NCBI GenBank assembly: GCA_030429205.1
Contig: JAUICZ010000001.1
Location: 1,106,806-1,170,805, forward strand
Direction: 5' to 3'
DNA length: 64,000 nucleotides
DNA from: Bacteroidia bacterium
Lineage (GTDB): Bacteria > Bacteroidota > Bacteroidia > Chitinophagales > Chitinophagaceae
Part shown: positions 34,172 through 37,611 of the stretch, piece after piece
How positions within the stretch are numbered: the stretch's first letter is position 1
Layout of the letters: every line of letters starts with the position of its first letter
Notes under the pieces: generated by a model
The model's input: the letters and a program-made list of their open reading frames with translations, nothing else
Database searches by the model: none
Told to the model about the DNA's origin: nothing
Program-made: the position numbers and the translations under genes

Positions 34172-36715
34172 TTATTTTTTTAATGATACTTTTTTTATTT
34201 TTTTTGTGATTAAGTTGTATATCCAGTCGATACGATTTTTGTATAGTGATAAATTGATAATTACCAAATCATCGTAATACTTGCACCCTCTATGATCAAA
34301 ACCATAATTTTCATAATGTATTTCGTCAGTATCAACATATGTTATACATACGCCTTTGCATTTTTGAAATTGTGATTTATCAGCTTTTATATAATTGATA
34401 TTAACGCCCTCGAACAGGCAATCTTTGAAAATTGTGTTTTGAAACTTTGTTGACTCTGATCTAGGCTTTTCTGTAGATAAAGGTCTCACGATACATTTAT
34501 CTAGATTACACTTTTCAAATATGCTGCTACTTATGTGAATAGTTAAATTAGAATAGTTTGAGTTTTTCATTCTCGAATTCTCTATTGCCAATTTTAAAAC
34601 GTTACTATCGGATTGAAAACTACATTTATTGAATGTCGATTGTTCCTGCATTATTGTACCTGTAGACTCTAAGGTTGAAACACCGACACAGACACAAGTA
34701 TTAAAGTCAATATTACAATCACATTTATTAAATACTGTATATTTAAATTCAGTATGTATAAATGTTACATTATTAAATTTACACGTGTTAAACTCAGTTT
34801 TGCTCAAGCTGTAATCATCAATAGAAACATTGGTTAATTTGAGTTTTTCGTGTTTTTGATCTGAATAAATGTACGCACACGTAATATTTCTTCTAAAGTC
34901 TTTATTGTCAGTTGTATTTAATTTCCTATATAGCTTGTTTTTTATCTCTTTGTCTATATGGCCATAAGATCCAATAAAATATAATATTTCTTTAGGTATG
35001 CTTGATGTGTTGAATTTATAATCAAATGTATTTGACTTTATAGAGTTTTTTAAATTTTTTGCAACAAAAAACTCCATAAAAGATTTGTGAACGAACCTAA
35101 AAGTATCATCTTCTGTTCTTGTAATAAATGAACATATTTGTACGTCAGAAATAATATCTTGAAGAGATACTTTGTCGAACTCTTTTTCTAGATTTAAAGC
35201 TACAACGTCGCTGCTTTCTATTAGCGATTTTAGTTCTTTGAAGCTTAGTTCTAGTACTTGTTTTTCAAACATTGCTAAAGCAATTATTTCAGCATAATTA
35301 CTACGTTGTTCTTGAGTCAAAAGTTGCCTTATAACACCTTTCTCCCAGTCTAAATCCAAGTTTATATTTGTATATACCTCATATAGCGATGCAGGGGTGA
35401 ATTCTATAACACCATTATTTTGATATTTCTCACCTTGCGAAATAATAGTGTCTTTTATCATTTTTAGTAATAAAGGCTTAGACATTAACTCGCTTAAATC
35501 ATAAATATTTAGGAGAAACTTTTTAATGTCTTCCCATGTTGATTTACATTTTTCGAGAAAGTCTGAATTAAACTTCTTAAGAAAGTTGTCTATTTGTTTA
35601 TCATCAAAGCTGTTGAGTGTAATAGTAGAAATCTCTATTATGTGGCAATCAGTAGTATCATTTGGTATGTAAGACTTACGAAGTGATTGGTACATATTAT
35701 TGATTGCTTTGAGGTTTTGAGTGGTTGAATATTTATTATTCCTGCCTAACTGCTTTATTTTAGGTGTATTACTCTGAAGCATGTCGATATAACTGTTGTA
35801 TTCCTTGTTGCTAACATAATAAGAAGGTCTACATGTTAATATTGAGGTGCAGTTTGATTTAAGTATTGGAGATATTGCCTTGAAGTTTTTTAATCTAACT
35901 GATTCATTATACTGAGTGCTCATTTCATCAAAGCCATCTAACAGGAAAAAGAAATTACCTTGCTCAATTTCACTTTTAAGAAGGTCAATTGGGATATCTC
36001 TTCTAAAAGTTTTATAGAACATATTTATAAGGAATTCGTCAGAACTCTTATATTTATTAAAACTTTTCAATTCTAAATAGAAAGGTTTCTTATTAATTTC
36101 TTCTTGCAAGAACTTTTTTGTTAACTGATAAAAAAGTCTTTGTAGGAGAGTAGTTTTACCGGATCCATAATCAGCTAATACACTTAGTACAAAAGATGAG
36201 TACGTTGCCTTTTTTACAATGTAAGCTTCAATGTTAGAGATTTCCTTTCTAGTCTCTGTATATGTAGCACTTATTGGTATATATTGAGTATATATTTCCT
36301 TTCTTTCATACTCTTTTTTCAGGTCAATGTAAGCACTATTTAAGTTTAAAATTTCCTGTTCTAACTCCTGAACAGTTAGAAATGATATAGTGCCAGAAGA
36401 TAGTTTCTTGGAGTTTGCTGTAAAGTTTCTATTTGTAATGAGAATACCTTTATTAAAGTCTACTTTTGTTTTTAATGCATTTATTGTACTTACAAAGTCC
36501 TGTGAAACTTGGTTAGAAACATTACCGGAGTCTAAGTATTTGCATTCTATTAGGATACTCATCTCGCCTGCACCATCAATATATTTATGTGCTTCAATGT
36601 CTATTTGCTGACCCTCAATATTTATATTTCTATTTGTGGAAAATCCTAAATTTTGATATAATTTCTCAATATAGTTTTCAAATGCTCTCCCTTTTCTTGT
36701 GTTTTGGTTTTTCAT
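34172..36715 (-). CDS. Mrr-like nuclease / NACHT NTPase with pentapeptide-like C-terminus (defence type)
   Basis: In this 847-residue protein, residues 1-125 are an Mrr/restriction-like nuclease domain with D39 (QQIDIEAH) and E57-C-K59 (LIECKY). Residues about 165-420 are a NACHT STAND ATPase: Walker A at 183-189 (GSGKTT), Walker B FFFLLDGFDE with D260, and TCRPSYY at 294-300. The last 200 residues (about 640-800) repeat short units with C-x-F and N-x-x-F spacing, as in pentapeptide repeats. Bacterial NACHT proteins are established antiphage sensors; nuclease fusions act by DNA degradation after oligomerisation. All catalytic residues are present. The gene is strongly AT-rich and single, which suggests transfer. 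Confidence 0.85.
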   Translation of the reverse strand: MKNQNTRKGRAFENYIEKLYQNLGFSTNRNINIEGQQIDIEAHKYIDGAGEMSILIECKYLDSGNVSNQVSQDFVSTINALKTKVDFNKGILITNRNFTANSKKLSSGTISFLTVQELEQEILNLNSAYIDLKKEYERKEIYTQYIPISATYTETRKEISNIEAYIVKKATYSSFVLSVLADYGSGKTTLLQRLFYQLTKKFLQEEINKKPFYLELKSFNKYKSSDEFLINMFYKTFRRDIPIDLLKSEIEQGNFFFLLDGFDEMSTQYNESVRLKNFKAISPILKSNCTSILTCRPSYYVSNKEYNSYIDMLQSNTPKIKQLGRNNKYSTTQNLKAINNMYQSLRKSYIPNDTTDCHIIEISTITLNSFDDKQIDNFLKKFNSDFLEKCKSTWEDIKKFLLNIYDLSELMSKPLLLKMIKDTIISQGEKYQNNGVIEFTPASLYEVYTNINLDLDWEKGVIRQLLTQEQRSNYAEIIALAMFEKQVLELSFKELKSLIESSDVVALNLEKEFDKVSLQDIISDVQICSFITRTEDDTFRFVHKSFMEFFVAKNLKNSIKSNTFDYKFNTSSIPKEILYFIGSYGHIDKEIKNKLYRKLNTTDNKDFRRNITCAYIYSDQKHEKLKLTNVSIDDYSLSKTEFNTCKFNNVTFIHTEFKYTVFNKCDCNIDFNTCVCVGVSTLESTGTIMQEQSTFNKCSFQSDSNVLKLAIENSRMKNSNYSNLTIHISSSIFEKCNLDKCIVRPLSTEKPRSESTKFQNTIFKDCLFEGVNINYIKADKSQFQKCKGVCITYVDTDEIHYENYGFDHRGCKYYDDLVIINLSLYKNRIDWIYNLITKKIKKVSLKK

Positions 36716-36854
36716 AATAACAAATTGCTGGAGTATTCAATTTTATTTCAGACTATAGTGTAATGTTAAGATGTGGTGCTGATAAATGTATTTATAAATA
36801 AAGCTATTCACAACCGTGAAAATCACCCCCTCTTACACTCCCAACAATTAAACC

Positions 36855-36863
36855 TATCTTTAC
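36855..36863 (+). promoter_or_regulatory. Predicted promoter of RNA cassette, copy 1
   Basis: TATCTTTAC at this place corresponds to TACCTTTAC in the second cassette (54276-54284, minus strand). The preceding CTCCCAACAATTAAAC block is also shared, as is the palindromic GTGAAAATCAC further upstream. Conservation of the whole block across the copies supports a common promoter. The -33 element is not a clear TTTG. Confidence 0.5.
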
Positions 36864-36865
36864 GG

Positions 36866-37037
36866 TTGAAAATATTGTAAGCGTAACTGCTTTCGTCTTG
36901 ACTGGAAACCTAGGAAATTTCAAAGTGCACAAGACAAAGTAAGGACGCTCACGCTAAGGCGTGGGCTCTCTTATTCGTGCACAGGCCTCCTAGGGCCTCC
37001 AGTCGGTAAGTTGAGTTCCACGCCCGTTTTTTTACGG
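36866..37037 (+). ncRNA. Candidate structured RNA leader, copy 1
   Basis: The RNA can fold into nested helices: GACTGGA (36900-36906) with TCCAGTC (36998-37004), CCTAGGA (36909-36915) with TCCTAGG (36988-36994), GTGCAC (36925-36930) with GTGCAC (36977-36982), and GCTCACGC (36947-36954) with GCGTGGGC (36959-36966). The second copy keeps each helix with compensatory changes. GGCGTGG (36958-36964) can alternatively pair with CCACGCC (37018-37024), directly before seven T residues (37027-37033), which would make a terminator. This gives a switch-like choice. It precedes a 75-codon gene. I match it to no RNA family that I know. Confidence 0.6.
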
Positions 37038-37097
37038 TCGGTGCTCAGGTATCCTAAATAAGCCTATCAATTTATTGTGATACTAAACCGTAACTGT

Positions 37098-37325
37098 ATG
37101 AATACTTTCACCACCCGCTTTGCGGGGTTCGAGTTCAGCGGCACCCAGGTGTCAGCCTACATTTTTTCGATAGACACTTTTGTGATCTCTTTAAAAGACG
37201 GGCGCGTCGTCCGCTTCACTACCGACGACCCCGAGCTGTTCGAACGCTGGCTACAACATCATGGTGCCCGCAACATCAACGACAAGGTAGGCTCTATGAT
37301 CTATAACTTTTATTTTGAGGAGTAG
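37098..37325 (+). CDS. 75-aa conserved small protein of the RNA cassette, copy 1
   Basis: The 75-residue protein (MNTFTTRFAGFEFSGTQVSA at its start) has a strand-rich first half, the core FVISLKDGRVVRFTTDDPE and an acidic end. It vaguely recalls DUF2442-type small domains but I cannot assign it. The second copy at 53811-54038 encodes the identical protein although the DNA differs at eight codons and the stop, all silent. That shows the frame is real and under purifying selection. Codons are more GC-rich than in the flanking genes. ATG is preferred over an upstream GTG at 37077. It is preceded by the structured RNA. Confidence 0.8.
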   Translation: MNTFTTRFAGFEFSGTQVSAYIFSIDTFVISLKDGRVVRFTTDDPELFERWLQHHGARNINDKVGSMIYNFYFEE

Positions 37326-37334
37326 TGGTTTGCC

Positions 37335-37611
37335 TTACTTCTTTTTCCGCAAAAAGAAGTAACAAGAAAAGGCGCCGAGACCTAAAGCTTCAACGGTCTC
37401 GGTTGTTACCTTGATGGGCTGTTGAGCTTCGGCACTGCCAGGCGGTAGTATTACTAGTTAAGAGAATAGCGTATTCATTGTTGATGCACAGTAGTACTAT
37501 AGTTACATCGGAGCAAGCCAAAATCTGGAGGTAATAAGATTTTGGTGTCTTTGAAGCCTGTGCTGAACTTGATTCAGTATCGTTCTTTCTTTAGACAAGT
37601 AAAGAAAGAAC
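37335..37611. repeat. Palindrome-rich intergenic element (REP/MITE-like)
   Basis: In the 390-base gap there are three perfect inverted repeats: TTACTTCTTTTT-CCGC-AAAAAGAAGTAA (37335-37362), CCGAGACC / GGTCTCGG (37375-37382 and 37395-37402) and GTTCTTTCTTTA-GACAAG-TAAAGAAAGAAC (37582-37611). The two outer hairpins are alike in size and composition and could be the ends of a small element. No gene is visible between them. The first hairpin could also terminate the small gene. Confidence 0.5.

Follow-up and report, generated by a model that had tools for sequence, protein, structure and literature searches.

The plus strand of the window (the whole 64,000-nucleotide stretch analysed) carries a promoter-like element, a structured leader RNA and a 75-codon gene, in that order, and a second copy of the RNA and gene lies on the minus strand. 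The helices of the RNA are assigned to two predicted folds, A and B. The features are as follows.

36855–36862, plus strand: promoter-like −7 element TATCTTTA, identified by sequence, one base off TANNTTTG
36875–37033, plus strand: leader RNA copy 1, U-run end included (covariance-model match; U-run by sequence)
36895–36900 with 36930–36935, plus strand: pseudoknot a/a′, GTCTTG with CAAGAC (96.8% of cells paired)
36900–36906 with 36998–37004, plus strand: helix P1 of fold A, which spans 36900–37004 (covariation)
36909–36915 with 36988–36994, plus strand: helix P2 of fold A (covariation)
36925–36930 with 36977–36982, plus strand: helix P3 of fold A (covariation)
36939–36974, plus strand: P4/P5 of fold A, the anti-terminator pairing of GTAAG..GCTCACGC with GGCGTGGGC..CTTAT (folding; near-invariant sequence)
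36958–37033, plus strand: fold B, intrinsic terminator at 36958–37026 followed by the U-run (T7) at 37027–37033 (folding and covariation)
36983–36987 with 36994–36998, plus strand: hairpin P6, at the tip of fold B (covariation)
37098–37325, plus strand: 75-codon gene (P75 family), stop included
54264–54102, minus strand: leader RNA copy 2 (covariance-model match)
54038–53811, minus strand: P75 gene copy 2, stop included, encoding a protein identical to that of copy 1

An earlier note, made from the letters alone, had described most of this arrangement. The promoter block that it claimed is present as the one-base variant of TANNTTTG, and the RNA, the T7 run and the 75-codon gene all lie where it placed them. 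Across a 519-base alignment spanning leader and gene, the two copies are 91.7% identical. As the note had observed, copy 2 retains helices through base changes on both arms (GACTGGA/TCCAGTC against GTCATAG/CTATGGC; GTGCAC/GTGCAC against GAGACAC/GTGTCTC), and the identical proteins are encoded with silent differences in eight sense codons and the stop. A large minus-strand gene (34172–36715) adjoins the locus; matches to Mrr_cat and NACHT in its N-terminal 371 residues make it a defence-like NTPase.

Covariance-model searches identified five copies of the leader RNA in the source genome. The first model, built from an alignment of twelve leaders found through initial protein searches, detected the RNA in 117 of the 294 genomes searched from the same family, the largest number of copies in one genome being eight; a second model, run on 395 genomes across the phylum, detected it in 52, of which 45 lie outside the family. 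An exact sequence pattern located at least 115 RNA loci in named genomes (L178–L292). The genera among the pattern loci listed, including Flavobacterium, Chryseobacterium, Pedobacter, Sphingobacterium, Chryseolinea and Algoriphagus, are ones that we take to belong to Bacteroidota, and the sole label from outside Bacteroidota among the matches listed is that of a metagenome bin called Proteobacteria (L259). When 68 pattern loci and one viral contig were tested with the covariance model, all 69 matched, and 67 of the 70 resulting matches entered the context set described below, two cut-off matches and one weak match being left out. On a contig classed as viral (L293, IMGVR_UViG_3300049216_000492), which may be a conjugative element, the RNA is followed by a response-regulator gene. 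The covariance-model and protein searches proposed in the earlier note yielded further homologues with the RNA beside the gene in other genera. Identical stretches comprising RNA, P75 and regulator occur in three different genomes (L043, L044 and L045), and the start of the P75 protein is the same in three others (L027, L222 and L230). Recent horizontal transfer of these stretches is likely, because they are shared between different genomes.

Searches of Rfam 15 at gathering score returned a tRNA as the sole match in the 64-kb window and no family matching the RNA at loci L190 and L215; at E values up to 5, loci L054, L067 and L077 gave a chance snoRNA match only. No known aptamer family was matched in the window or at the five other loci tested. 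A plasmid collection searched with one RNA gave no match, and we found no paper describing the leader RNA in the open-licence literature (supplements aside). Several structured RNAs of Bacteroidota (Flavo-1, 6S-flavo, Bacteroidales-1 and Bacteroid-trp) carry Rfam accessions according to the available part of PMC2864571; the leader RNA, in a comparison limited to such accessioned motifs, has no Rfam match. The available part of PMC8040213 describes HMP2_1032, a 106-bp candidate RNA near a TonB gene that is palindromic and found on both strands. It resembles the leader RNA in its Bacteroidetes origin, predicted terminator and proximity to a TonB gene; the leader RNA is set apart from it by this palindromic, two-stranded description only, and the two could be identical. 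The leader RNA is apparently an undescribed, widespread Bacteroidota family.

We examined the helices of fold A in an alignment of 100 distinct sequences, which includes the five copies of the source genome and was fitted to a P0–P5 model, favouring those helices; the pseudoknot and P6 lie outside the model. The ten strongest covarying column pairs all fall in P1, P2 and P3. Taken with the pseudoknot, helices P0–P3 contain 518 doubly changed cells, compared with 129 in shuffles, and 94.8% of their pairs are standard, compared with 74.4% in shuffles and 27–46% when the helices are slid. These counts bear out the contention of the earlier note that the structured RNA is under selection. One pair assigned to P1 is unpaired in 94 of the 100 sequences. 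P4 and P5 are near-invariant and therefore offer little covariation to test. Unpaired bases are also conserved in the consensus, which is no proof of a ligand.

The 3′ strand of P5 and the CTC..CTTAT that follows it are complementary to the bases directly before the U-run. Among terminator segments of RNAs selected by length and U-run criteria, a selection that favours U-run carriers, 149 of 150 fold with the P5 3′ arm paired to these bases (mean z −4.5). The U-run stands at the expected position in 141 of 164 RNAs and is absent by the criterion used in the other 23; five control windows gave 1 to 44. The alternative terminator that the earlier note had inferred therefore exists, not as a short local hairpin but as a long stem with the P5 3′ strand as its 5′ arm. 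Because P4/P5 and the terminator share this strand, they are mutually exclusive.

Covariation in the terminator stem of fold B was assessed in an alignment of 60 of 61 chosen segments. With P6 included, the stem holds 73 doubly changed cells compared with 24.9 in shuffles, most of them from P6. Counted separately, P6 holds 63 doubly changed cells compared with 20.9 in shuffles and is paired in 95.2% of cells; the number of doubly changed pairs in P6 alone was matched by 43 of 500 shuffles. Without P6, the 60 sequences show 25 doubly changed cells, compared with 6.2 in shuffles and 6 to 20 in slid controls, and 94.0% of cells are paired, compared with 26–58% when slid. Both-side changes include CTC/GAG, CCT/AGG and GTT/AAC. 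The stem varies little: double-sided changes affect 5 of its 18 pairs, and 50 of 500 shuffles reach that number. The loop of P6 is the 3′ strand of P2, and P6 and P2 could together form a pseudoknot, instead of P6 marking the second fold. A hairpin across the U-run that had been picked out by eye at several loci (P7) was rejected, its best complement scoring 6.8 compared with 6.45 in shuffles.

The two folds are closely balanced in computed energy. For fold A we took the RNA up to P1, and for fold B the terminator together with only the 5′ part. In 158 RNAs (selected by the same length and U-run criteria, without dereplication), the energies average −52.8 kcal/mol for fold A and −53.5 kcal/mol for fold B; in 73 of these RNAs the lower value belongs to fold A. 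In terminator-type riboswitches and attenuators, a central strand takes part either in an anti-terminator on its upstream side or in a terminator with a U-run on its downstream side. The leader RNA has this strand exchange in common with them; unlike known terminator-type riboswitches, its pseudoknotted P1–P5 domain matched no family. An intrinsic terminator thus precedes the gene and competes with a conserved anti-terminator fold, and two covarying, competing folds are the anatomy of a transcription attenuator. The suggestion of the earlier note that the RNA is of the regulatory-leader type is supported.

We noted that the sequence TANNTTTG, which we take to be the Bacteroidota −7 element, occurs no more than 60 bases upstream of the RNA in 114 of 168 relatives, compared with 2 on the reverse strand and 2 to 22 in windows farther upstream; with G or A as its last base, its commonest position is −27. 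The RNA is also co-oriented with the gene that follows it. At 181 loci, with ORFs called mechanically, the first downstream ORF of at least 100 amino acids lies on the same strand in 157 cases and on the opposite strand in 16, with none in 8; for ORFs of at least 150 amino acids, the counts are 136, 27 and 18. The nearest upstream ORF of at least 150 amino acids shows no strand bias (43 to 41). Genes of the modelled classes lie downstream on the same strand 152 times and on the opposite strand once, a count that carries no weight, since same-strand genes had served as seeds for the class profiles. The RNA most likely acts in cis. A free-standing small RNA acting in trans, its 3′ end simply marked by the U-run and the genes that follow incidental, would also have its own promoter element and a strong terminator, and a recognised target is missing downstream of 29 of 173 copies. 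We nevertheless judge it improbable, given the same-strand bias of the first downstream ORF, the presence of several copies per genome before different operons, and the conservation of a competing fold that a plain terminator would not need.

The context set comprised 181 loci and was not random: 114 were mostly best-scoring matches in genomes of the family and 67 came from the exact pattern. Removal of identical RNAs left 173 loci, in which the downstream genes, in overlapping classes, include a SusC/TonB receptor at 51, a response regulator at 32, an ECF sigma factor at 30, P75 at 24, TlpA at 21 and an unnamed MNNAV family at 9, with none of the modelled classes at 29. Upstream lie a divergent XRE-type HTH gene at 93, another HTH gene on the same strand at 21, a same-strand XRE match at 1 and neither at 58. 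The XRE and HTH17 profiles were iterated in the way that had led a P75 profile astray into response regulators by means of a run-on frame. In Pfam searches, HTH_3 matched 45 of the 86 divergent ORFs taken from upstream of the RNA at 114 loci, and 138 of the 153 listed downstream ORFs gave Sigma70_r2 in 23, Plug in 18, FecR in 15, Redoxin in 15 and Response_reg in 12. Members of the unnamed family, most of which start MNNAVATP, stand directly behind the RNA at loci including L069, L099, L104, L105, L106, L112, L114 and L122.

At 16 named SusC loci, 15 of 29 further ORFs behind SusC match SusD-like_3, and both of the third genes in these operons that were scanned in full encode S9 peptidases. 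One locus tested over its full stretch (L190) has TraJ, TraK, TraM and TraN beside the RNA; the series of ORF sizes at L203 and L212 resembles that of L190, and no Tra match came from the individual proteins tested from L212, L214 and L219. RNA loci with a non-XRE HTH gene look like conjugative transposons. On a tree of the RNA, we counted 52 changes in the class of the following gene, compared with 112 with shuffled labels, indicating that contexts are inherited but often exchanged, within the tree resolution of a short molecule.

This diversity bears on the proposal of the earlier note that RNA and 75-codon gene form a cassette. A fixed two-part unit, for example one resembling a toxin–antitoxin system, would fit the RNA beside five of the seven P75 copies in the source genome and the recurrence of the pair in other genera. 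However, two of those seven copies lack the RNA, P75 stands behind only 24 of 173 RNAs, and the P75 family occurs with and without the RNA, many P75 loci showing none by blastn. The likeness to a type III toxin–antitoxin layout likewise fell away: no ToxN-like, toxin or defence match of weight was obtained, and most RNAs examined precede unrelated genes. The absence of tandem RNA repeats, which the note had itself remarked on, was confirmed (0 arrays in 36700–37400). A fixed cassette is already largely refuted by these context counts, and we give it scarcely any credence; the 75-codon gene here counts among the targets of the leader and does not define it.

An alignment of 28 P75 members gave no convincing family in Pfam, NCBIfam or PADLOC. 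DUF4880 (best Pfam E value 0.0098, 2 of 28 members) and KpsS (NCBIfam, 8.7e-5 for one of 28 members, taken as chance) were rejected, and the best scores were 0.48 in the PDB by sequence and 0.0083 in PADLOC. The AlphaFold model of P75 has three strands and two helices (mean pLDDT 77), and its best Foldseek match had an E value of 0.03. In genome G002, four P75 paralogues (L022, L024, L025 and L026) share the same GC-rich hairpin insert and stop after the RNVN codons; the exact pattern of the insert occurs nowhere else in G002 and is absent from G000. The insert could have spread by gene conversion, be a micro-insertion or represent a bypass-like element.

At 29 of 162 RNA loci, a small frame with a KPKNPV-like sequence directly before its stop lies within 550 bases behind the RNA, compared with 0 on the reverse strand, with a motif defined after examples had been seen. 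Carriers include L050, L057, L064, L068, L072, L077, L079, L083, L086 and L087. The N terminus of these frames is variable and the C terminus near-invariant ([FWY]A[KC]KP[KR]xP[VI]-stop). Used as a profile, the tail matched in 13 of 79 genomes of the family. The RNA accompanies 13 of 20 such loci, seven of which were sources of the profile; among the others it accompanies 6 of 13, two of these sharing one RNA. Because the residues beside the stop are invariant, the sequence suggests that the microprotein may be a leader, arrest or signal peptide. Translation could also control the RNA itself, with a ribosome on a short ORF inside it choosing the fold. Frames of at least six codons starting with ATG occur near the RNA in 110 of 179 cases, compared with 88 in the reverse complement, but mononucleotide shuffles hold more (mean 154.5), the start positions of the frames near the RNA scatter, and the conserved microprotein sits behind the terminator, not before it. 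A leader-peptide attenuator is thus very unlikely.

We consider it highly probable, on evidence that is computational throughout, that the RNA is a cis-acting leader regulating transcription elongation, that is, an attenuator. The computations support the RNA family, both folds, the terminator, the promoter element, the cis orientation and the variety of downstream genes; from these we infer a switch that works in cells, and its direction. The leader RNA would be transcribed from its own promoter. Folding of P1–P5 with the pseudoknot would sequester the strand GGCGUGGGCUC-N-CUUAU, which would alternatively pair with the downstream GUAAG-UUGAG-UUCCACGCC before the U-run to form the intrinsic terminator. 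A signal that shifts the balance between the folds would determine whether polymerase terminates or carries on into the following gene. The genes so controlled would be SusC/TonB importers and their ECF sigma factors, the response regulators of apparent conjugative transposons and, here, the 75-codon gene.

The leader is possibly a new riboswitch class. In a fuller version, which we advance tentatively and regard as doubtful, P1–P5 would be the ligand domain and the divergent XRE-type protein its partner, and the signal would be common to importers and conjugative transposons. That signal is perhaps peptide-related, in view of the SusCD operons with S9 peptidases and of the KPKNP[VI] microprotein encoded directly behind the RNA. 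The available part of a study of Flavobacterium psychrophilum reports 64 structured 5′ regions and a cobalamin riboswitch before a TonB-dependent transporter, and does not describe the leader RNA motif (PMC9723704). Like that riboswitch, the leader RNA precedes an outer-membrane importer in Bacteroidota; unlike it, the leader RNA has no Rfam match, and its targets include sigma factors and response regulators.

With two covarying folds, the attenuator model is open to direct testing. If the attenuator reading is true, this widespread RNA, present in up to eight copies per genome, would add to the known regulation of Bacteroidota a layer that is absent from Rfam, and a signal common to nutrient-uptake and conjugation genes would be unexpected.
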